Assembly (NCBI GenBank): GCA_017979445.1
Contig: CM030713.1
Coordinates: 27,447,934 to 27,511,933, forward strand
DNA from: Akebia trifoliata
Lineage: Eukaryota > Streptophyta > Magnoliopsida > Ranunculales > Lardizabalaceae
Length of the DNA stretch: 64,000 nt
Direction of reading: 5' to 3'
A program made the translations under genes and the position numbers. The notes under the pieces are model-generated. The model had not been told where the DNA came from, searched no databases, and saw only the letters and a list, made by a program, of their open reading frames with translations. Shown piece after piece: positions 1-21,955 of this stretch. Position 1 is the first letter of the stretch; every line of letters begins with the position of its first letter.

Positions 1-1040
1 AATTCTTGATCGCCAATGGAGACTTTGACGTGACCTTTGAGAATATTTTTTAAATAATTGTCAAATAAAAGATGACTAGGAGCTAGTCCTCTTCTCGATA
101 GCAAAAACCTCTCAATCTTTCCAACATCTATGAAATGGTTTAGCCCAACACTTAGCGCCTCCCCCACCATTATTAACAGAATTGGTGATATAGGATGCCC
201 CTTGTCGAAGACCTCAAGTACCATAAAAAAAACATGAGGGCATCCATTGACTAGAACATAGTCAGAAACACTCAGCAGACTACCTCTAATCAACTTTAGA
301 AAATCATTCAAGAAGCCCATCTTAATCAAGACCGCCATCAAAAAAGGCCACTCAAACCTATCATAGGCTTTCTTCATGTCAATCTTCAACGCAGTGTTGC
401 TTCCTTTGGTATTCAGCTTCAGATCATCTATAACTTCATGAGCCAACACAATATTATCATATATGTTCTTTTGCCTTTACAAAAGCACCTTGTTCGGGGA
501 GATTAAAAAAGGAAGAAGTTCACTAATTCTAGATGCCAGAATTTTAGAAAAAAATTTATACATAAAGTTGCATAAACTTATGGCTCTAAATCTGAAAAGC
601 TAACAGGTACCTCGAGCTTGGGAATCAAGGTAATGGAAGTTGCATTGACAGCTTTTGGAATCTCTCTATCCTTCAAGAAATTTAAGACTCCTGCCAACAG
701 ATCATTCTTGATGCACATTATCCCAGCACTTGAGGTAAAAATGGTCTGAAAACCCATTCGGACATGTAACACCATGAGTATTCATCCCCTTTATAGCTTG
801 GAATACTTCTTTCAGGGTTGGAGTAGCACAAAGATGGGAATTTTGACTTGTAGTAATTTTACAGCTTATACCTTCAAGCAAATTACTAGAGGAGCTAGAG
901 CATGCTCACACTCTTGGACCTTAATTTCCGCTTATTTAAGCTTTTGATGGACTTTACCCACAACTTTCTTATTCCAGAACTTAAGATCAACTTTGAGCCT
1001 CTTTAAGTTTTGTGAAAAACTTATTTGGAAATTGCCCAAA
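1..1040 (-). pseudogene. LINE (L1-type) ORF2 remnant, reverse transcriptase region
   Basis: Read on the minus strand, this is a decayed non-LTR retrotransposon ORF2 cut by the left window edge. From right to left one can read the linker before the RT domain (KLKRLKVDLKFWNKKVVGKV near 1010-950), then IKNDLLAGVLNFLKDREIPK and SITLIPKLEVP (about 710-600), then LKIDMKKAYDRFEWPFLMAV (about 395-340) and GHPISPILLIM (about 200-160). These match RT blocks of plant L1 LINEs. The frame is broken by stops and shifts, and the position expected to hold the catalytic YADD box reads HLLFDN, so the copy is dead. Family assignment is firm; the boundaries are not visible. Confidence 0.85.
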
Positions 1041-1267
1041 TATCATCTAATAGCACCAATTATAAATGGGTTATTAATGGAATTCTTGTTGTTGGAATGC
1101 TAGGATTAGGTTCCTATGAATATTCTTAAGATATAGAAAAGTAAATGAATCTTCTCTATTAATGCAAGATCCTCTACTCCTTGCGTTAAGACTTAAGATT
1201 GCCAACTCAACATTTACATTTCTGCCAGAGGAATGTTGTTTTGGGCCCATTGTCCAATGAATTTGTG

Positions 1268-1713
1268 TAGGGCTGGCAATGGGTCGGATAATATTGGTTT
1301 ACCCGACTCATCCTACCGAAGAACTAGCTGAGTTATTCAGGTATGGGTACAATTTTTTTATCTAACTAACAATTCAGGTAAATTTATCCACAATTATTTT
1401 TATCAGAATATTTTTAGGGTTGGGTATGGATATATATGCGTCCTATCCAACCTTCACAGTAAAATATATGTTGGCCCAAAGTTAAGGTTTTTCCACCATC
1501 TTCCCAATGAAGTATATAGATCCACTTGGATATATGCTTGAAATTTGGGTAGAAGTCAGATATGGATATCTTTTGAAAAAGTTGATAAATAGTCAGATAT
1601 GGATATCCTTAACATAAGTGGGTAAAAAATTAGAAATGGATAAGCGGATACAGAGTTTGATAAGGATATGAAAATAGCTTCATCCATCCCACAACCGACC
1701 CGCTGTCAGCCTA
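1268..1713. mobile_element. hAT-like MITE, 446 bp
   Basis: The ends are imperfect inverted repeats: TAGGGCTGGCAATGGGTCGG on the left and, reverse-complemented, TAGGCTGACAGCGGGTCGG on the right. The flanks carry a near-identical 8-bp duplication, AATTTGTG (1260-1267) and AATGTGTG (1714-1721), which fits the 8-bp target duplication of hAT transposons. There is no coding capacity, so it is non-autonomous. Related GGTGTCAATGGGT-type termini occur near 6557, 31398 and 50873. Confidence 0.65.
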
Positions 1714-2320
1714 AATGTGTGCCCTCTCTTTCATTGACCTACACAACGAAATCAGACTGATGGTTGAAATTTCTCCTTTGGATTCGTGGGTTTTTTTTAT
1801 TCATGGGCTTTACAAACATTGAAGTGGTGGGTTTCAAGGCCTTGATCCATTAGCTAGAATTTACCAATTGAATTGATTTTTGGTTTGGAGATCTATCAAA
1901 GAAGCCACAAGCATTGATGAATCCGTGGGTCCAAAAGAGTATAACTCAGTGGCAAAATGCAGGCATAGAGTTAATTAATTAACCTTAATGCTAGGAGTAG
2001 ACGATCCACACACCGATGTTGAATATTTTTAAAGATAGAGAGAAATATCAAAATAATGATTGGTGTAGTGAAAGTAACATATATATAAATATTTTTAAAT
2101 TAAAAAAAATGCATGATTTAGACAAAAGTGAATGGAGGAGCAGGACTTGTTCAACCAACCTTAAACACTTAGAAGGGCTTAATTCGGTGATGATGAAGAG
2201 GTTAGCTCATGTCTGTTTCGAGTTTTATAAAACAATTCCGTTGCCCCATTTGACCAAACGATGAATTTGATCTTTGTTGTCTATTCTACTACGTATAACT
2301 TGTTTAGGAAAAATCATATA
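1714..2320. other. Intergenic, no gene recognised
   Basis: AT-rich sequence with only short open frames that lack homology or exon signals. Nothing further is supported here. Confidence 0.6.
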
Positions 2321-2324
2321 CGTT

Positions 2325-2400
2325 AAGGTGGATTTTGAACTCACCTTGTACTCATTGACTTTAACCAACTTAGCTAGTTGGCACCTTTTAAAAAAGGAAA
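2325..2400 (-). mobile_element. SINE-like fragment with tRNA-type internal promoter
   Basis: On the minus strand an A-box-like TAGCTAAGTTGGT (2376-2364) is followed 21 bp later by a B-box-like GAGTTCAAAATCC (2342-2330), preceded by the conserved lead GGTGCCAAC. Related sequence occurs at 9245-9330 (+) and 27850-27945 (-), which suggests a dispersed tRNA-derived SINE family. Ends and tail are not clear. Confidence 0.45.
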
Positions 2401-2811
2401 ATGATGAACTGACTATGTTGGACATTATGCTGACATGGCAGTGAGCAGAGAATCATAAATTTTTTCATCATTGTATCTCGAAGAGAATGATCTATGGTCC
2501 AATAACCACTACCACATCAATGCAGTGTCCAACGAAGTCAGTTTAGATCGACTTTTTAAAAAATATACCTACTAAACTTGATCATTGTTATGATAGCTAG
2601 TTGTTAGTGCTGGAGAAAGCAAAATCCAAATCGATTTTCCTACAAAATCTAGTTTAACGGGTTGGGCCTTCAGAGTGTCAGTGCTGCATAAAGTTGAGCC
2701 CAAATCAATTTTAATACAGAGTCCAGTACTGCAGTTGATCTTGAACCTGGTTGGATATTTGGAATTCTGTATGGTCTTTAAAACATTGTTGTCGAAAATT
2801 CTTTATGAGAG

Positions 2812-2936
2812 CTTCTATTAACACATCAATATTTACTTATATAACACACCAAATATATTTAAACAACCATTTAATTATTGAAGGATTGGTTTGTTGTAAG
2901 TAAAAGTTGGTGTGCCAATAGAATCTCTCTTATTTA
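2812..2936. mobile_element. Hairpin MITE, family A (GAGAGATTCTATTGGC ends)
   Basis: The left end, GAGAGCTTCTATTAACACA, pairs with the right end read in reverse, GAGAGATTCTATTGGCACAC. The arms continue through an AACTTTTACTTA block. Copies or half-copies lie at 30175-30280, 32480-32520, 51178-51278 and 55413-55514. This copy sits just downstream of the SAP stop codon and its right edge supplies a possible AATAAA poly(A) signal on the minus strand (2937-2932). Confidence 0.6.
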
Positions 2937-3091
2937 TTTAAAAACCCAAACTAACACCCAAAGCCAACTCTTCTATTTAATGTCTGCAAATGAACACATG
3001 TATCCATTGTGAGCTCATATGCACACCAAAAAAAAAAGACCCAACTCTCTCTCTCTCTCATCAATGAAAAGACAAAAGTACCCTTGATAGA

Positions 3092-3613
3092 TCAAAACCT
3101 ATCAACCATCTTATCAGGCTTCACCATCGGATTAGCCTTAGCGATGGCATCACGACCCACAGCTTTAAAATCGAACTTGCAAGCGTGCTCCTCCGGGTAT
3201 CGATGGGTGGAGCAGAAAGTACTCCCACACCTGCACTTGAACCCGGTCAACCCGACCCGCTTCTTACAGCTCCAGCACCGATTCTTCACACCCGAATCCG
3301 ATTCCAAATTCTCCCAATTTGCTGTCGATGGAGACGAAAACGAAGCTAAAGGTAAAGCCGTATCGACCGAAGTAGAGATAGAGATAGAGATAGATTGTTG
3401 TTGGTTGGTAGTTGTTGTTGATGGGAGAGATTTCTTCATTGTTGATGCTTCTTCTTCTTCTTTGATGCAGAAATCTCTGTAACATTTGGAGCAGAGATTC
3501 ATCGTTGCTGCAGAACCGAAGAACCCGCACCCGTTCGTGCAGAGTCTGTGAGTTTCGGGTGGTTCGCAAGAACCGCTTCCCTTGATTTGGTTCCAGCTCT
3601 CTTTAGAATCCAT
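3092..3613 (-). CDS. SAP: A20/AN1 zinc-finger stress-associated protein (SAP)
   Basis: Intronless 173-residue coding exon. The A20 finger lies at residues 22-49 (LCTNGCGFFGSAATMNLCSK, with Cys 25, 29, 41 and 44). A Ser/Thr/Gln-rich linker follows, then the AN1 finger at 111-149 with Cys 113, 116, 127, 129, 134, 145 and His 137, 143 all present. The C-terminal tail after the last ligand is typical of the family, and the 160-175 length is normal. SAPs are known ubiquitin-binding and E3-like regulators of abiotic stress responses. The ATG at 3613 gives the conserved MDSKE-type N-terminus. A non-coding leader exon probably lies at about 5154-5330, with intron donor AACGAG|GTAAAA at 5153 and an acceptor between 3620 and 3635. 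Which SAP paralogue it is cannot be decided by eye. Confidence 0.95.
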   Translation of the reverse strand: MDSKESWNQIKGSGSCEPPETHRLCTNGCGFFGSAATMNLCSKCYRDFCIKEEEEASTMKKSLPSTTTTNQQQSISISISTSVDTALPLASFSSPSTANWENLESDSGVKNRCWSCKKRVGLTGFKCRCGSTFCSTHRYPEEHACKFDFKAVGRDAIAKANPMVKPDKMVDRF

Positions 3614-3624
3614 CTTCGTCTCTC

Positions 3625-5153
3625 TCCGTCTCTGGTTTTCTTCAAATTTGATAAATAAACAAATAAAAGAATGAGAGTTAATTAGGTTAAGATCCTCTCT
3701 ATTTCTATCACTCTATCACATCATGATGACACATATGCTTAACACGTAGTTGACCGTTGAATGGATCTTTTAGTTTGACTAAAATACTCTTTTTTGACTT
3801 TCCAAAACTATTTTTAGAATGATTTAATTATCAATAAAAAAATTTACAATATTATAATAAAATTATTGAGCAATCATAAATATTTAAACTTAATTTAAAA
3901 AAATTACAATATAGATGTCAAACAACCATAAAAAAATAAAAATAAATAAATAAAAAATTTAAGATGTAATAAATTAAAAAATAAAATCCAACAAATATAT
4001 GAACATCCCTTTAGCTGAAATAGGAGGGAGAATGTGACAAGTGCCTAATCCTACTTTTAAAAGAAAGAAAAATAAAAAACGAAAAAAAAAATTCTAAAAA
4101 ATTGCATAGATCGATTTGATTTTAGATCATCTCTACGAATTTATAGAGATAGATTTGATTTCAAATTTACTTTTTCATTGTTTTCAAGTTTGATTTTTTT
4201 TAATTTCTTGTAATCAATTAACCAAAGAGAGGGTGAGAGAGATACTTGCATGAATGAGATGTTGGAAAGTGTAGATGATGGAGGATTGAGAAGTCCAACC
4301 GATGAAAGAGACTGGAGTTTCATTAATAACTTGGGTTAATTTCATTTCTTTTTATTAAATATTATAATATTCATAAATAAAAAATTCATTTGATTTGTTT
4401 TCTCTTAAAAATATGTGAAATTTTCAAATTATTCAAATATTCAAGAAAATAATACCTTTATTAAAAATATATATATAATAAATGAACTTTTCGCAAATAA
4501 AACGGTAGATTGCTAACAAGGATTACACCTCACACCATTGTAAATGAAGGGAGCTTTTTTTTTTTTTTTTTTAATAAACAGCATGTCAATAGTATTATAT
4601 ATTTTGTCCAATATCATTGGACGTTATAATTATCATTTTATAATCTAGGATGTCTTATCACTAAATTGAAAAGGCAAATTAAGGGTTTTGAGGAAATTGT
4701 TTCAACTTTCGGGAGGTTTGTGTAAATAGTGCTTGAGTTTGAGTACTAGCTCGTAAAAGACCTCTAATTTTAATTGTGTTGGACACCATAATTATTTTTT
4801 ATGTAGGGGTTTGTTTGTCATTTAAAACAAATTGTATTATAGAGAGGGACACAGAAAAAAAAAATTAATAGTTTGGGTCATTTTAAGTAAAACAAACAGA
4901 AAAAAAAAAATTTAGTTTCTTTTTTTATTCTTGTCTTCTAATCTTTCTAATTTCTAAATAGGAAGGCTTCACGTTTTAGCTGTACGATCGCTCCACATGA
5001 AAGTCGATCTGGACCGTCCATCAGATATTTATACCAACAATTGAAACAAACAGAGACCATGGGATTCGTAATTAATCTCTTAGATCACTCGCTTTTACAG
5101 AATATAAAGAGAAACAAAAACATATAGAAGTTATGGAGAGATTTGTTTTTACC
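3625..5153 (-). other. Probable 5'-UTR intron of the SAP gene
   Basis: AT-rich stretch without coding potential between the SAP coding exon and the CT-rich leader. On the minus strand it begins with the donor GTAAAA at 5153 and ends in a T-rich tract followed by AG candidates just upstream of the ATG. Introns in the 5' UTR are frequent in plant SAP genes, but this one is an inference. It also holds a poly-T run near 4555-4572. Confidence 0.5.
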
Positions 5154-7694: not shown

Positions 7695-7922
7695 CATGGT
7701 TTTAAAACTCGACTTCGCGTCTCGTCTCATTCATGCTAGATACCGAGTCATCTTAGATGAGTTTTTCAATACATTTGAGACATCTCGTCCAAAAATTTAT
7801 AAAATGCACGTAAGATATTAAATCTCGTTTGAAAAATTGATTTGTCTGTCCATCTTGTTCATGTCATATACCGAGATGACTCGAACAATACACCTCAGTC
7901 TCGAACGAGTGTTAAAACCATG
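7695..7922. mobile_element. Family B MITE copy 1, 228 bp, 8-bp target duplication
   Basis: Left end CATGGTTTTAAAACTCG; right end read in reverse CATGGTTTTAACACTCG, 16 of 17 matching. It is flanked by a perfect direct repeat GTTCCACA (7687-7694 and 7923-7930). Inside are several GTCTCGTC/GACTCG motifs. Copies 2 and 3 lie at 50275-50742 and 63382-63588, also with 8-bp duplications, which points to hAT-type mobilisation. Confidence 0.75.
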
Positions 7923-8109
7923 GTTCCACATCAACTGTTTAGACGTTTAGAGCTAGGCTATAAGTCATTAAGACATGAATGCTACACCACAAAACACTTT
8001 GATCCCCCTCCCACTACGTCAAAATCTCAAATTTATATAAAAAAATTTGTTGGGCCTGGCCCGTCGAATTTTAAAATCCAAAATCCGCGGCCCGTGGACC
8101 ACGTTTTCA

Positions 8110-8580
8110 ATCGATCTCTTTCTCTCACGTTTTCAGCGATCTCGATCTCTTTCTGCTCTCTCTCTTTCTCCTTCTCTATCTCTCTGCCTCTCTCACTGTC
8201 ATCGATCTCACAGTCATCTATCGATCGATCCACTGTCATCGTCTCACAATCTCTGTCTCGGTCGACCTCGCCCTCTCTCTCTCTCTCTCTCTCGATAGAT
8301 CAACGTTTCCATCGCTTTCTCACAGTTGATATCTCGATCGATCGACCTCGCTTTTTCACTCTCTCTCGCGACCGATCGACCTCTTCATCCATCGACTGAC
8401 CTCTCCATCTCTCTTTCTCTCACAGTTTCTTTCTCGATCGATCTTTCTTTCGATCTGTCTCCCTCAATAGATCTCATCTCCCACTATTTGATTGATCGAT
8501 CTCGATCTAGATCTGATCCTCGTTCTCACCTGCTGCATCACCTCACGCGACAAACCAGGAATCTTTGCGAATTCGGGCCA
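8110..8580. repeat. CT-rich low-complexity tract with TCGATCGATC motifs
   Basis: Long stretch of CTCTCT and TCGATCGATC words. It keeps several frames open by composition alone. A sequence GGGCCAG|GTACTC at 8580 looks like a splice donor, so this may be a captured 5'-leader exon, but that is only a possibility. Confidence 0.6.
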
Positions 8581-8593
8581 GGTACTCTTTCTA

Positions 8594-8683
8594 ATCCGAT
8601 ATATTTAGATTTGGATTGAAGATTTAGGTTTTTTATCCGATATATTTAGATTTGGATTGAAGATTTAGGTTTTTTATCCGATG
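8594..8683. repeat. Tandem repeat, 41-bp period
   Basis: The unit starting ATCCGATATATTTAGATTTG begins at 8594 and again at 8635, and a third partial unit begins at 8676. The first two units are identical. Confidence 0.85.
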
Positions 8684-9237
8684 TATTTCGTATCAATCTT
8701 GATACCTATAGATTCCTATATTTTGAAGCATGTAATTTGATGCTTCTAGATAATATCTGAATGTGGAGAATTTATTGAGACTAATTACGACATTGTGAGA
8801 ATTTATTGAGACTAATTTATTTTGTTGGTCTTAGAATTAAAAAATTCCGATACAAATTGAAACATAATAAAATTAAAAGGAGGGGAGGAATTGAAACAAT
8901 GACCATTACAAGGGGAAACATATCCCTTCAACTTGGTCTTCTCTAAGAGACTAATTTAAATGACCTAAATGTCTTGAAAATTCTTGATTTTTCTCATCTA
9001 AAACCAATATATGGTGTGTGATAATAAAAGGTTGGCATGCAAAAATAATTGGTGTGCTATAAGAAAATATATAATCTGACAGTAGTTCTTTAATTAAAAA
9101 TTAATTGATTCTTTAAACGAAGTTCCAATTATGTTCAATAAGTACAAAAGCTTTTGATCTCTATTTTCTTTTTTTAATGATATTTTCGAGATACCCAATG
9201 ATCAATCCTCACTTGAGGATTTATGAGCAATATGTCG

Positions 9238-9330
9238 TAATGAAGGTGCCAACTTACTAACTTGATTAAAGTCTACATGTTTAGCACCATATGACCTTGG
9301 CTCAAAATCCACCTTCATATACCAATTAGT
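9238..9330 (+). mobile_element. SINE-like fragment (same family as 2325-2400)
   Basis: Plus strand GGTGCCAACTTACTAACTTG followed by GGCTCAAAATCCACC resembles the A-box and B-box arrangement of the copy at 2325-2400. The A box is degenerate. Confidence 0.35.
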
Positions 9331-10090
9331 ACCCACTAAACCGCTTGCTTATCGTGGGAGTAGATTAATTTTTCATCAATTTTGCCTTTTTATGCAATAG
9401 GTTGCACAAATTGGTGAGAGTATGTCATGTTTCATTTCTTTTATTAGTTTTAGTGATTTTTGGTGTCACCCTTCATATTTTGTGCAGGAGATGGCTAAGC
9501 TATGTTGATTCTTAGTCCACCACATTTTAGTAAGTTTAAATATTCCTAATTACGGATTGACCCATTTTATAAAGTGTGTGGATCATATTGGATTGTTGAT
9601 TTTATTCATTGAGTCCCATTCCTTGATAACAATATGTAGTTGCATTGGCGGTATGGTGCCATTAATGTTTAGAGATCATGTTCAGAGGCCACTGGTGGTT
9701 GCAAGCTACATATGCTCACCCAATTTGTATTAGGCAACTAGTGGCTGTAGCTAGAGATGCTCACCTAATTTTTATGAATAATGATGAATGCACGTGATAA
9801 ATCACACGTGACTGATATAGCAATGTCATAGAATAGTATATCTTTTTTCTTGTGTATCCCAAAAAAAAAAGATCTATGAAGGATTATCTTATACCCCACA
9901 GCCAAAGCAATTTAGCCATTCATTTTAGATCAAGCTTAGAATTGTAGACATTCATATTCATAGATTTGGGTTTTGCTTTTCTTTCCTTTATTCTGTTGTA
10001 GTATTGGGCCCTTTGATATATAGAGAGACAGATATGACATCTCACGTGTTGATTCGTACAGAAAAATTAATTATATATATGCTCTCATTG

Positions 10091-10116
10091 TAATAATAAT
10101 AATAATAATAATAATG
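10091..10116. repeat. (TAA)n microsatellite
   Basis: About eight uninterrupted TAA units inside the CACTA interior. Confidence 0.9.
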
Positions 10117-10547
10117 TATTAGTTTTGAGATAAACCTACGAGTAGGTCCAGTCTAAAATGAGGTCTCTTTTTTCTCTCCATAATGGAGTGTGGATTCTCT
10201 CTGAAAAAAGTGAAAAACATTCGATTTCACGTGAGTCCCACATTACAAAATCGAGGGAAGTATGGTGGCAAAAGAGCTAGAACTCATATTATTTCTTTAA
10301 ATATACCATACCAACTCAACATTTAGATAAATTTTAAAATAACAGAAACTATTAATTATAGAACAAATAACAACTTTCATTTCCTCTGATCTCATTACAT
10401 ATTCTGCATCTCACTCGCTTACTTTAAACTTTGTTAGATTGCCTTCTACCACCACAACTACAACTTCTATTCATCCTTTGGAGCTGACCCACCAGCTTCA
10501 ACAATCTGCTTAATCTGAATCTTCAGCTACAATCAATAAAGAGTTAT

Positions 10548-11043
10548 TATAGAGAAAAACAGATTTATTTACAAAGTTGGGTTTCAGTAATACCTTGATC
10601 TACTCACCGAGACTAGATATTTGTTTCATGTTTTCTCTTTACTTTTGTTTTTGTTTCTTTTGTTTTCTACTTCTTGCTTGATTATGTATAGAGAAAAACA
10701 GATTTATTTACAAAGTTGGGTTTCAGTAATACCTTGATCTACTCACCGAGACTAGATATTTGTTTCATGTTTTCTCTTTACTTTTGTTTTTGTTTCTTTT
10801 GTTTTCTACTTCTTGCTTGATTATGTATTTTATCTTTCCACATGAATGGGGGAACCCAATGAGGATGTGATGTATGGTAGCTTGAACTTTAAACAAAATA
10901 TTAGCCTGATTAGTAACTTTTTTGTTTTCTACTTCTTGCTTGATTATGTATTTTATCTTTCCATATGAATGGGGGAACCCAATGAGGATGTGATGTTTGG
11001 TAGCTTGAACTTTAAACAAAATATTAGCCTGATTAGTAACTTT
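10548..11043. repeat. Two overlapping tandem duplications (139 bp and 123 bp)
   Basis: A 139-bp unit (10548-10686) is repeated at 10687-10825. Its last part then starts a second unit of 123 bp (about 10798-10920) repeated at 10921-11043. The two units share a TTTGTTTTCTACTTCTTGCT segment, so the second duplication arose across the edge of the first. The copies are almost identical, which suggests recent events. Confidence 0.85.
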
Positions 11044-11577
11044 AAATAACCTATCACTCTGAGGGAGCCCTTGATTTTTTTCTCAAGGAACAATATTTTT
11101 AGTATTGTTGTTGTATATTATAATCTGATAGGTTTTATTTTAACCTAAATAAATCATGGTTTGATTAAGGGCCATTTGAGTTTGAGCGTCAATGGTACAC
11201 TAAAGGGGATATCAACTTGAACTTAAAGTATCCTCCCAGTATTTCAAATATTTTGTCCAATATAAACTATCACATCTTGCTTTATAGAGCACCCATTTGA
11301 ACATTACTAATTTAAAATCTTAATTTGGTTATCATTTACTTCTTTTAATTTAATTTTGCTAACATGAATGCTCCTGATTCAAGAGGCCAAATACCATTGC
11401 ACAATTGTATTCTCATCAGAAGCAGAACTTTGTTTGCCCAACTACGTTTCTCAAGGTGACCTTTATTATCCTTGCCCCATCGTGGTGGTTATACATTTAG
11501 TAATTTTGCTAGCACATCCCTTCCCGTCCCCCCCCAACCCCCGCTCCCCCCCCACCCTTTTTTTATTTTCTTTTAGT

Positions 11578-11665
11578 TGCGTAAGTTGGACTTCAACCCA
11601 TGACCTCAAAGTTGGTTTGCAAGATGTCAAACCAGCTGAGCTTATGGGTCTAAGCCCTACTCCAA
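11578..11665 (-). mobile_element. tRNA-derived SINE fragment, second family
   Basis: On the minus strand AAGCTCAGCTGGTTTGACA (A-box type) is followed by TTTGAGGTCATGGGTTGAAGTCC, whose GGGTTGAAGTCC is B-box-like. The block GGTTTGACA..CAACTTTGAG also occurs on the plus strand at 21865-21955, so the two are copies of one family. Confidence 0.5.
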
Positions 11666-12706
11666 ATTAGAATGTAAGAGACAAAAATTTAAGATTTTTG
11701 TCTGTAGAAAATGTAAGGATATACTTGGAACATGAATGCTTATCGACTAGGCACAATGTGATGGCCTAGAATTCAATAAAAAGAAATTACATTGAAACAG
11801 CAATAATTCATTAACCATCAGATTGGGTACTAAATGGCTGACTGATACAAAAACAAATATAAACTAAACTAAGTCTTTATCCCTAAGTGGCATCCCCCCA
11901 ACTTTCGGGTTCCTCCTGAAGTTCTTATTCATCATTATTATCCGTTGGACATGAAAAGTTCGTGAACGGTGAAGCCAAGAAAGTAAATAATCCATGAAAA
12001 CTATAATATGTAGGAAAATTGGGAGTTGGAATAAAATAAAATAAAAGGAAGACTTATGTCGTGATAATTTTCAATGTTTTCGAAGGTAATTTATATAGAT
12101 AACTATTATCACAATTCTGAGTGATTTATTTGTTGGTTGCCTAGTGTTGGGATCAACCTCTCTCGAGTGGTTTGTCACTCTCGTGGTATTTAGCCAATGT
12201 CCTGTCCTTAGACGGGAGTGATCCTACCTAGGATCAACCTCTCTTGAGATAGTATCTACCCCTCAAGCTATTTAGCCGGGTAGGATCAGGTAAGAGTATA
12301 CTAATTATTATTCTATAATGTTCGTCTCTTTTATATATTTATATTTATATATATAAAGATATAAAGTATGGCCCTAGGCCAGTTTTTATGAAATCATGAG
12401 TTTGCGATAACTAGGATATTTAGGTGGCATAGCCAGTCATTTGGAAGTAGCAAGTAGTTTTAAGAAAATAAAATAAAGAGAAGTTAGAATCAAACATTAC
12501 GTGGCTTGGTCGATCATCAACATGTAGTAAGAATAATTTAAAGATCATATTGATTTGATCTTTTCTCTTGTTTATCTCTCAAATTATAAAGAGTATTATG
12601 TAAGTGCTTTAATTAACAATTATTCTTAAGCAATTGAATGCTTAGGTAAGGTTTTATCAAAACTAGGATCTCATTTATACAATTATGCTTTACGTTTTCT
12701 AATCAG

Positions 12707-14077
12707 AGGTGTATGTTGCAAGAGAGAAGAATGGTATCTATATACCACGAGATCATTATCTACAAGAAGAAGCTGAAAAGAAGGTTTGATTCTTACCATG
12801 TAATTCATCTTTAATGTATTCTCTCTTGAAGTTCCTAATGAGAGGGACATTTCAACTTTGTTCTCCAGGCTATGTCATGGAACTTGATTCAGAGTCCAAG
12901 GACAAGGTACAATCCACAACCTATGTATTTGGTTTTTTTATTTGTCTTTTTGGTTACTATATGTATAGATTTAACCAGCTAATTGTATATCGTGAGCAGC
13001 AAGTAATGGGACTTCAAGAACTTTACAACTCTCAGCAACTGTTGACTGTAGAATTAAGTGAAAAACTTGAAAAGACTCAGGTGACTTGTTGTATAGTCAT
13101 TCTCCTGACCTTCTTTTAAGCTTTTTGCCTCAATGCAAGAAATTAAAGTCTTTGTTGTTGCCTGTATGTGTCCATAGAAAAAACTCGAGAACACTGAACA
13201 TGCGTTGTTCAATCTAGAGGATAGATATAGACAGGCCAACTCAACGATTAAAGAAAAGGAATTCTTAATCTTTAATCTCCTCAGATCAGGTGAGTAAAGT
13301 TCCATCACCTTCTTTCAGCACCCTTTCCTGATTGTTTTATGAAATGATGTTTCTTTTTTGTTTCCTTCGAGAACTTCCATGTTAGGCTTGAATTTTGGAA
13401 AAAAATATTTTGAGATGTTTTGGCATTGATATTTTTATCTGTCACTCATTATTTGGATTGGATGAAGGGTGCCTGAAAAGGTTGTAATCGATTGGAACAT
13501 TTAGTTAACAACTTAGTTTAGCTTTAAGTACATGTTGACCATTCCATTGGTTTTTCACACTCATCACATCTGTATCTACTTTACATAGTTTGAACCAGTA
13601 CCCTTAATTCAAATAGCTTCCATCTTGCTAGGGGTGTTGGACAGTTGCCATCTTGCTAGGGGTGTTGGACAGTTGCCATCTTGCATCAGTGACATTTATT
13701 GCTTATTTTTCAGAGAAAGCACTCATGGAACGAGCATTTGAGCTTCGATCAGAGCTAGAGAATGCAACATCTGATGTGTCTGGATTGTTTGCCGAAATTG
13801 GTTTGTGTCCATGTTTTGAAGTACACAATGTTGGGTATATCTTACTAAAAAACAAGGCATGAAGATTGCCTATAAACTTTTGCAATGTGATTGGTGTGTA
13901 GAACGCAAGGATAAAATAGAAGATGGAAACAGAACTCTTGTTCAGAAATTCCAGTCTCAATTGACTCAACAACTTGAGGTCTTGCATAAGACTGTTGCAG
14001 CTTCCATAATGCAGCAGGAACAAGAATTAAAAGAAATGGAAGAAGATATGCAGTCGTTCGTTTCCACAAAAGCAGAT
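12707..14077 (+). pseudogene. Kinesin-5 (BIMC/KIN-5) gene fragment, exons of the stalk
   Basis: Six exons with GT..AG borders read as the stalk of plant KIN-5, the spindle motor: 12707-12783 (VYVAREKNGIYIPRDHYLQ), 12869-12909 (ELDSESKDK), 13000-13080 (MGLQELYNSQQLLTVELSEK), 13178-13289 (KKLENTEHALFNLEDRYRQA), 13714-13800 (EKALMERAFELRSELENA) and 13902-14077 (QLTQQLEVLHKTVAASIMQQ). The exons from 13000 on keep phase. The second exon is shortened between its GCTATG start and ELDSES and shifts the frame, and both the motor domain and the tail are absent. It therefore cannot make a kinesin. Sequence continues at 14091 directly into a fragment of an unrelated gene. Position inside the probable CACTA element suggests transposon capture; a locally duplicated pseudogene is the alternative. 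Confidence 0.88.
13621..13686. repeat. 28-bp tandem duplication in a kinesin-fragment intron
   Basis: CATCTTGCTAGGGGTGTTGG begins at 13621 and again at 13649, with a third partial start at 13677. Confidence 0.9.
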
Positions 14078-14090
14078 GTAAGATGTAAAT

Positions 14091-15056
14091 TATGAAGCGG
14101 AGTACGTAGATGGTGTGATGAGGCTGTATGCTACGGTGGTGTTGCCGAAGAACATGGCGGGGGCGACGGTGAATCAAGTGTGGCAGGTGTTCGAAAGGAA
14201 CACTTGATTTAATGAGTGGGCAGAGCAATAGTACCCAAAGTAAAAGAGGAAATTCAAATCTCAAAAAGAGGAATGTAAGTTGTTTTTTTATGCTTAATTT
14301 TGTTTATTTGTGGTTTTTGTTACTTAGTGGTTTCCTTGTTATATGATCTTTAAAAAAAAAAAAGAAAAAAAAAAAACTAATTTGTATTGTTTTTTTTTTT
14401 GGCAGATTCATGGAATTCTGAATGCAGTGAGTTGGGGAATTTTGTTTCCAATTGGAGCCATATTTGCTAGGTATCTCAGGACATTCAAGTCAACAGATCC
14501 AGCTTGGTTTTATCTTCATATCTTTTGTCAGAGTTCTTCCTATGTTATTGGAGTTGCCGGATGGGCTACTGGTCTTCAGCTCGGGGCCAATTCAAAGGGT
14601 TTGGTATACAAATCTCATCGGAATATTGGGATCACTCTCTTTTGTTTCGCAACATTGCAGGTAATTATAATTGTTCCTAATTTGTTCATTGTTTCTTATT
14701 TTAGGCACATTTTCTTAATCAATCATAATGAGTTTATCGTTCTTTGTGTTGTGTAGATTTTCCCATTGTTCCTAAGGCCAAAGAAGGAGCACAAGTACAG
14801 GATTTACTGGAATTTTTTCCACCATATTGTTGGATACTCCATCCTTGTTCTTGGTATCGTCAACGTGTTTAAAGGTCTAGACATGTTGGATCCAGCTAAA
14901 ATGTGGAAAACAGCTTATATTGTGGTATTGTGTGTATTGGGTGGGATTGCATTAGTGTTGGAAGTTACGACATGGATCGTTGTTCTGAAAAGGAAATCCG
15001 AGGCATCCACCGAACCTTATGATGGGAATGGCAAGCAACAACCACTCACAGTTTGA
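14091..15056 (+). pseudogene. Cytochrome b561 and DOMON domain gene, 5'-truncated and frameshifted
   Basis: Three exons encode the C-terminal two thirds of a plant DOMON-cytochrome b561 protein, a transmembrane electron carrier family. Exon 14091-14274 holds the end of the DOMON domain (YEAEYVDGVMRLYATVVLPK, VNQVWQ) and then, in another frame from 14203, the linker LDLMSGQSNSTQSK. The loss between VNQVWQ and LDLMSG creates a stop at about 14207. Exons 14406-14660 ([32 protein letters not shown]) and 14757-15056 ([28 protein letters not shown]) give the b561 transmembrane core with its haem-ligand His residues and the usual basic tail, ending at TGA 15054-15056. Signal peptide and most of DOMON are missing, replaced by kinesin-5 sequence. 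AATAAA at 15296-15301 could still serve as a poly(A) signal. A truncated protein starting inside the b561 core is conceivable but not supported. Confidence 0.88.
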
Positions 15057-15295
15057 TCAACAACAAGATTGCAGGGCCACATATAGTATTGAGGAGAGTT
15101 GGTTCTCTTACAGTTTGTCTATAAAGTTACTTCTTCGGCTTTCTCTTAGGTATCTCTTAGAATCTATTATTGCTTCTTCAATTGTTTGTGTTTTGTGTTT
15201 TAAATTAAATCAGGAGTGTGACATAAATAGATGTATATATGTCATATACTACTTTATTGTCAGTTATTTGTAGTTTCGACAGAATTTTCGATCTT

Positions 15296-15301
15296 AATAA
15301 A
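15296..15301 (+). terminator. Candidate poly(A) signal AATAAA of the b561 fragment
   Basis: AATAAA lies 240 bp after the stop codon in T-rich sequence, as in an ordinary plant 3' UTR. It implies the captured segment includes the donor gene's 3' end. Confidence 0.45.
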
Positions 15302-15454
15302 GAGGTTTCATGTATATTAATTTTGGGTTATTTAATTTAGTTTGGAGCTTGTTTTATGATTTTTCTTTTGTTTTTTCTTTTTCTGATTTTTTTTTAAATA
15401 TTATTTCGGTCATTGTGATTGGTAAATTAGAGGACCGTGTTATTGTTTGTTAAA

Positions 15455-15647
15455 CCTCCAAATTTGACGGTCATACTCTATGGATTTTTTTTTTAAATCC
15501 ATTCTCCAATAATTTGATAGTTCAGGGTCGTCAAAAAAAAAATTCTACAAGAGAATATTTGACAGGCATATTTGACGGGAGGGTCCGTCAAATTTTGAGA
15601 AATTTGACGGGCTAAGACCGTCAAATATGAGCCTTTTTCACATAGTG
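15455..15647. repeat. Subterminal AAATTTGACGG repeats and right terminus of the CACTA element
   Basis: Five copies of TTTGACGG or its complement occur in both orientations within 190 bp of the terminus TTTTTCACATAGTG. Dense subterminal repeats, which serve as transposase binding sites in the CACTA superfamily, are the best single evidence for this end. Confidence 0.7.
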
Positions 15648-15650
15648 TCC

Positions 15651-21864: not shown

Positions 21865-21955
21865 TTTGGGCTTAGACTCATATCTTAGTCGGTTTGACAC
21901 ATTTCAAAACAACTTTGAGTATGTAGGTTCAATTCGAACAGAAATTACCTAAAAT
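21865..21955 (+). mobile_element. tRNA-derived SINE fragment, second family
   Basis: CTTAGTCGGTTTGACACATT (A-box type) is followed by AACTTTGAGTATGTAGGTTC and AATTCGAAC (B-box GGTTCAATTCGAAC). Matches the minus-strand copy at 11578-11665. Confidence 0.5.

Follow-up and report, generated by a model that had tools for sequence, protein, structure and literature searches.

The 64,000-nucleotide window of the Akebia trifoliata genome analysed here (contig CM030713.1, positions 27,447,934 to 27,511,933; coordinates below are those of the window unless a locus is named) very probably contains, at 8012-15647, one inserted copy of a multi-copy, non-autonomous element of Pack-CACTA type, which carries captured pieces of a kinesin-5 (KIN-5) gene and of a cytochrome b561/DOMON gene, is composed of hybrid halves and would be moved in trans. 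The element measures 7,636 bp between two TCC flanks. An earlier sequence-only reading of the window had described a CACTA transposon at this place, and its termini, TCC flanks and exon blocks were located as claimed there.

Recurrence of the paired ends in the genome

The window's own assembly (652.5 Mb, 878 contigs) was searched for relatives, and the best 40 candidates were scored in the left-end, b561, left-flank/empty-site and left-module searches, whose counts are lower bounds. With the left 289 bases of the element as the query, 52 matching pieces were obtained from the best 40 of 346 candidates. All 40 scored places, the window included, started exactly at base 8012, and the remaining 12 rows were additional pieces at these same places. 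Approximately 10 kb was read from 20 of the other 39 places, these being the best-scoring ones with three on small contigs omitted, and in 12 of the 20 a right end of the window type was found downstream on the same strand within 10 kb. Identical 3-bp flanks enclosed 11 of these 12 end-paired copies (ATG, ACC, TAT, TAT, ATA, ACC, TAA, ATT, ATT, TAA and ACT), and these relatives span 5.6-9.8 kb. This recurrence of paired ends with matching flanks indicates that 8012-15647 is a full-length member of a mobile family. Two loci were organized otherwise: L017 (C2:33305383-33315370) contained a second left end 3.3 kb inside together with mismatched flanks, and L016 (C4:37032550-37042539) had an inverted right end with no same-strand right end within reach. 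Both are possibly nested or rearranged elements.

The cargo recurs together with the ends. The kinesin query gave 28 matches, with all 24 candidates scored, and 13 places (window included) hold the kinesin cargo, 95-97% alike. Both ends were read at five of the 12 other cargo places, L027 in full and four by short stretches, the latter picked since their left ends stood in the left-end list. Matching 3-bp flanks were present in all five: ACT in L027, and CCC, TGA, ATA and TTA in the four others. Several insertions with separate duplications are therefore found, as in Pack-CACTA elements mobilized with their cargo, and the right terminus was present in 9 of 11 right-end stretches of cargo copies. 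The claim of a single 7.6-kb element, for which the sequence-only reading had proposed a genome search for other copies with the same termini, is thus borne out by the copies sharing the exact left end from 8012 and by matching flanks in 11 of 12 end-paired and 4 of 4 further cargo copies.

Just outside the element, the left flank 7760-7923 belongs to a dispersed repeat of about 163 bp that is 79-84% alike at no fewer than 38 other places, possibly a short interspersed nuclear element (SINE).

Termini and subterminal repeats

The inverted termini begin with CACTA, as in the CACTA (En/Spm) superfamily, and the 3-bp target-site duplication of that superfamily is seen both in the TCC pair of the window and in the relatives. 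Short direct and inverted subterminal repeats occur on both sides, with two motif copies at the left end, which form its only unit, and six at the right end. The palindromic unit of 29 nt was defined as AAATTTGACGGGC, 3 nt and GCCCGTCAAATTT. Some features of the ends were not significant when taken alone. The terminal 13-mer CACTANNNNAAAA occurred twice in the window against 1.8 expected from shuffles, and the motif AAATTTGACGGGC, allowing at most 3 mismatches, showed no excess in the window (25 against 19.4 expected). Local alignment of both ends was weak, as 39 of 6,343 background windows scored equally well. The end-to-end alignment and the single-motif count were accordingly dropped as sole evidence and the palindromic-unit test was used instead: across 14 spacings and orientations, a site with at most 4 mismatches was absent from all 300 simulated windows, which upholds the subterminal repeats that had been noticed at both ends. 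The exact core TTTGACGG was present five times, each at the right end, against 1.1 expected. An Rfam scan gave no match at gathering scores.

Table 1. Positions of the element, its ends, its modules and its cargo in the window
Feature	Position	Strand	Remark
Left target-site duplication TCC	8009-8011		Matches TCC at 15648-15650
Right target-site duplication TCC	15648-15650		
Left terminal inverted repeat CACTACGTCAAAA	8012-8024	+	Start of all scored genome places
Right terminal inverted repeat CACTATGTGAAAA	15635-15647	-	
Left palindromic subterminal unit, 13 + 3 + 13 nt	8043-8071		3/26 mismatches
Right subterminal repeat array, six motif copies	15460-15628		Includes palindromic unit 15600-15628
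Right palindromic unit, 13 + 3 + 13 nt	15600-15628		2/26 mismatches
Left module	8012-11733	+	Shared piecewise with L011, L009, L015, L018
Tandem duplications, 139-nt and 123-nt units, in left module	10548-11046	+	
Stretch between modules, 816 nt	11734-12549		No match of at least 50 nt in the 31 loci compared
Right module (kinesin, b561 and right end)	12550-15647	+	95.6% to L027 over 3.1 kb
Captured KIN-5 genomic fragment with introns	12550-14091	+	
KIN-5 exons	12707-12783, 12869-12906, 13000-13080, 13178-13289, 13714-13800, 13902-14077	+	
Captured cytochrome b561/DOMON fragment with introns and 3' untranslated region	14094-15222	+	
Right end conserved in family	15254-15647	+	L015, L018, L022 match from 15254

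The captured gene pieces and their donors

Both gene pieces keep introns and hence derive from genomic DNA. The b561/DOMON exons reach 15058 and have the same orientation as the KIN-5 exons, confirming what had been noticed from the window itself. The kinesin piece is truncated at both gene ends and has small deletions inside; near 12875, the window copy lacks 16 nt that all 11 other aligned copies have. Its assignment to KIN-5 is supported by database matches, among them proteins annotated as KIN-5D and as kinesin family protein 11, and by the genome's own kinesin-5 genes on C6 and C8, with exons open over the stretch read. Searched against PDB sequences, the kinesin piece gave just two weak coiled-coil matches (E 0.065 and 0.6), and Pfam gave nothing useful on it.

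Below the cargo copies, the kinesin search listed C6, C8 and C2, and then eight single-exon matches. The assembly yielded no kinesin donor with exon identity above about 90%; the best gene, on C6, reaches 89.7% in its exons and 66.6% in its introns. On the kinesin stem there were 18 synonymous and 11 nonsynonymous substitutions, against 2.73 nonsynonymous per synonymous without constraint (p 7e-5). This constraint points to a working kinesin-5 gene as the donor, which would now be lost, unassembled or elsewhere, perhaps in another lineage. The C6 gene was ruled out as the direct donor, since its introns are just 67% alike while the stem is constrained.

Two further observations concern KIN-5 sequences outside the family. 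L062 (C3:18384500-18386100) and L063 (C6:7443600-7445200) represent another dispersed repeat, 91% alike over 1.39 kb, which contains a kinesin-5 exon; that single exon is 79-84% alike to the query at eight places, and the repeat may reflect another capture or amplification of KIN-5 sequence. DUF4216 is a CACTA-associated domain, and the database protein P0216 (named from Pyrus, 315 amino acids, predicted) shows a weak DUF4216 match (27.3 bits, below the cut-off of 30.6) followed by KIN-5 exons, a hint of independent KIN-5 capture by a CACTA element in another plant.

The b561 piece corresponds to an At3g25290-like CYB561/DOMON gene, of which it lacks the 5' part, and has small deletions inside. 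Its donor is one of a tandem gene pair on C5 (all 14 candidates scored), and in the one copy read the exons are open from signal peptide through stop. Identity to this donor is 96.9% over 14094-14189 and 95.3% over 14189-15222; 58 nt of the donor near 14189, between the two matched pieces, are missing from the cargo, and the match stops at 15222, where element sequence takes over. The b561 query was found in full length, starting at the kinesin junction, at 10 or more places including the window (9 of the 12 other kinesin places). In C4 and C14a window positions 14211-15184 are missing and the fusion is partial, and C14b has no b561 piece within the 1.5 kb read. Seven b561 places are without the kinesin junction (C13, two on C7, C10:1.47M, C188, C11:42.2M and C6:26.3M). 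These also pass into the right-end sequence of the element where the donor match ends, and six of the seven keep the 58 nt, C13 having no match upstream of that segment. The DNA upstream of b561 was read at four of the seven: L058 and L060 are of one type and L059 of another, while in L061 the beginning of the b561 gene is fused to its middle part. In L058 and L060 another gene piece lies upstream of b561, which we take to resemble plastid signal peptidase.

Host counterparts of the cargo therefore exist elsewhere (b561 on C5, kinesin-5 on C6 and C8), as for the captured coding DNA of Pack-CACTA elements. The earlier proposal that the element picked up genomic pieces holds for the origin of the pieces. 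It does not hold for the window copy as the captor, because kinesin is present at 12 other places, nine of them with full b561, and the window copy has a different left half.

Modules and hybrid halves

The window copy is a hybrid of an L011-like left half and the cargo-bearing right half. The left module, which is a mosaic of repeated segments, is 92% identical to L011 over 8012-10689 and 96-99% over later pieces. Within it, the tandem copies 10548-10825 (139 nt) and 10797-11042 (123 nt) are exact or near-exact and partly common to L011 and L009. In comparison, the window element and L027, both complete, share nothing beyond the right module and the left end as far as about 8514, and the L027 interior 512-4226 showed no match in the window element. 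The stretch between the modules was compared with 31 loci, namely the 20 left-end loci and 11 cargo loci.

The break at 12550 is sharp against 10 other cargo copies, with C83 breaking near 12617. The remaining copies, C16 left out, were grouped by 1.5 kb of upstream sequence. C8, C12 and C11a form a group with C11b (L027), a roughly 500-bp insertion in C11b being the difference over the 1.5 kb compared; C11c, C10b and C1 form a second group, and C4 and C14a, with C14b, a third. A 204-nt piece in C4 and C14a is also present in element L022. The kinesin-bearing right half was thus found in at least five upstream contexts, with sharp and staggered breakpoints. For three contexts, represented by the window copy, four C8-type copies and C11c, the two ends were read and have matching flanks; the left ends of C10b, C1, C4, C14a, C14b, C83 and C16 were left out of this reading.

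Projected on protein P0173, the 5' edge of kinesin lies at residue 5 or earlier in C4, C14a and C14b, at residue 13 in C11c, C10b and C1, at residue 35 in C8, C12, C11a and C11b, and at residue 111 in the window copy and C83, so that the longest copies reach the motor-domain part. This staggered shortening indicates that the capture of kinesin is older than the left half of the window copy. In the interval from 9 to 15 kb of the window, no subterminal motif with 1 or fewer mismatches was found, leaving no trace of internal ends there. Window positions 11605-11657 and 21868-21919 are inverted copies of a short sequence, 81% alike, which we presume to be reminiscent of a tRNA-derived repeat.

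Transposition and joining of halves

As in other Pack-CACTA elements, no transposase of its own was found in the window copy: none was present among the 50 open reading frames (ORFs) of at least 38 amino acids in 8013-12811, and the remainder consists of kinesin, b561 and the right end. One of these 50 ORFs gave a DUF5374 match (E 1.6e-05), which was disregarded as a probable effect of composition. All 54 ORFs of 85 or more amino acids in nine elements entered the domain tally, 20 of the 54 being scanned singly. L019, which has the same ends and matching TAA flanks, carries Transposase_21 (E 6e-33) and Transpos_assoc, a tnp2-type transposase of the kind that CACTA elements carry, found in this one relative. 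A transposase-bearing relative with the same ends, to which an alignment had been suggested from the window, does exist. Host-gene domains were also found in complete relatives, namely G6PD (L022), GAPDH (L020) and PP2A B56 (L019).

In the available text of PMC8978399 and PMC8195511, the termini of CACTA elements are bound by the transposase, target duplications measure 3 bp, and the subterminal repeats are bound by another protein. The window element may likewise be moved in trans by the tnp2 transposase of its same-ended relatives. New halves could then arise through repair of a cut or gap in one element on the template of another. Alternatively, two neighbouring elements might fuse and afterwards move as one, and fusion of neighbouring insertions is a published model (available portions of PMC8903248 and PMC13317346). 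For the window, subterminal motifs of 1 or fewer mismatches were, as noted, not found at 9-15 kb. The absence of such motifs gives no direct support to fusion of neighbours, yet fusion is compatible with it. We tentatively suggest, at slightly less than even odds, that the family diversifies mainly by left-half replacement, through template switching in gap repair rather than neighbour fusion, and that the kinesin 5' edges form a staircase on which the window copy stands near the last step. Its odds are reduced by the upstream contexts, of which just three of the five have been shown to belong to complete elements.

Weighing of alternative explanations

Several observations count against reading 8012-15647 as a copy of a mobile, hybrid Pack-CACTA-type element. 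One of the 12 end-paired copies (L017) has mismatched flanks, 8 of the 20 left-end loci have no same-strand right end inside the 10 kb read, and an empty site sought in the same genome was not found among the best 40 candidates scored. C14a and C14b are without the right terminus at the expected place. The C83 and C4/C14a/C14b contexts, two of the five, are not established as left halves of elements, the tnp2 reading frame of L019 is interrupted, and the joining step is itself inferred.

The chance frequency of the terminal 13-mers and the divergence of the two ends would fit a resident, degenerate kinesin/b561 gene pair that is flanked by chance by the ends of two unrelated, partly lost CACTA elements. 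This explanation is already refuted, for the fusion occurs in full at nine other places and partially at two, kinesin occurs at 12, and matching 3-bp duplications enclose the five other copies read at two ends as well as 11 of 12 in the family. It is also improbable, if somewhat less so than the other alternatives, that the gene pieces were joined by a Helitron or Pack-MULE and later lodged within a CACTA element. Both types carry gene pieces, according to the available part of PMC1947982, and the kinesin donor was not found in the assembly; the 3' edge of b561 at 15222, however, is about 30 bp from the conserved right end at 15254, so that a foreign end would hardly fit between them, and the upstream breaks differ in position among copies.

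The remaining alternative is that the transposon created a functional chimeric gene encoding 346 amino acids with a kinesin coiled coil and a b561 membrane core. Splicing from 14077 to 14406 would give an open frame of this length in the window copy with every GT-AG site present, and five histidines of the b561 core are kept (invariant or shared by 101 of 105 homologues) along with a sixth (99 of 105). Of 79 columns conserved at 95%, the b561 core of the window copy deviates in 3, a number equalled or exceeded by 8 of the 105 homologues (taken from 120 listed proteins), and a soybean CACTA element yields spliced chimeric transcripts, as stated in the accessible text of PMC1947982. The frame, however, requires skipping of the DOMON piece and an internal start, and among the nine aligned copies with both pieces (the tenth, C16, being unaligned) it is open only in the window copy. 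An early stop at codon 22 is common to seven of the nine, six of which have a 1-nt deletion, and the C83 fusion copy has one stop. Substitutions within the family are near-neutral: 20 synonymous and 34 nonsynonymous in the kinesin exons against a neutral 2.73 nonsynonymous per synonymous (p 0.09), and 10 and 29 in the b561 exons against 2.53, with a modest contrast between kinesin stem and family (Fisher p 0.04). Since the other copies are closed and substitutions near-neutral, the open chimeric frame was mostly rejected as a selected gene, and a functional chimera appears very improbable. The cargo looks non-functional, and the carried exons would be passenger DNA without a selected protein within the Pack-CACTA-type element.

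Comparison with known systems

The element belongs to an already known type, that of Pack-CACTA and Tgm-Express. Pack-CACTA elements are reportedly the subject of Catoni et al. 2019. Those of Arabidopsis, maize and rice likewise enclose captured host coding DNA between CACTA ends of non-autonomous type, and have conserved ends with differing interiors, as presented in the available text of PMC8903248, which also reports multi-locus elements, chiefly in maize. Tgm-Express1 of soybean (5.7 kb; PMC1947982, available portion) is a CACTA element of similar size with exons and introns of five unrelated host genes. It differs in the genes captured, in sitting in a gene intron and in its documented chimeric transcripts, in comparison with the sequence evidence given here. 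By its description, the Tpn1 family of morning glory is similar in its shared subterminal regions and varied captured gene pieces (PMC8195511, citing Kawasaki and Nitasaka 2004, in the text available). CACTA elements of Chenopodium include some that have captured pieces of host genes and some that contain tandem repeats; in the accessible portion of PMC8978399 the gene pieces stand upstream of a conserved element domain (TAD), whereas the window copy is without a recognized element protein.

The sequence-only reading had called the element previously undescribed. CACTA elements with several host-gene pieces have already been described. As to this element itself, no publication on its termini was found, judged by titles, with most subscription journals outside the coverage; none on this element was found for CACTA with kinesin or CACTA with b561, by titles and abstract openings; and the pairing of CACTA elements with palindromic subterminal repeats likewise gave none.

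The way in which DNA transposons gather host genes and recombine them continues to be debated, and an alternative, undiscovered mechanism of capture may exist according to the available part of a 2026 review (PMC13317346). The family described here offers a readable series, with a known donor (b561, C5), one fusion, and one kinesin-bearing half whose breakpoints are mapped beside its several contexts, and this mapped series makes neighbour fusion and gap-repair template switching testable against each other from sequence alone. Unlike the accounts of Pack-CACTA in the accessible text of PMC8903248, one cargo-bearing right half here meets several upstream contexts with breakpoints staggered inside a captured gene, and unlike the neighbour-fusion model given there, remnants of internal ends were not detected at 9-15 kb. 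The shuffling of halves thus appears unusually clearly visible in this family, and the staircase that left-half replacement forms may be novel in its details within a type of element that Pack-CACTA and Tgm-Express already represent.

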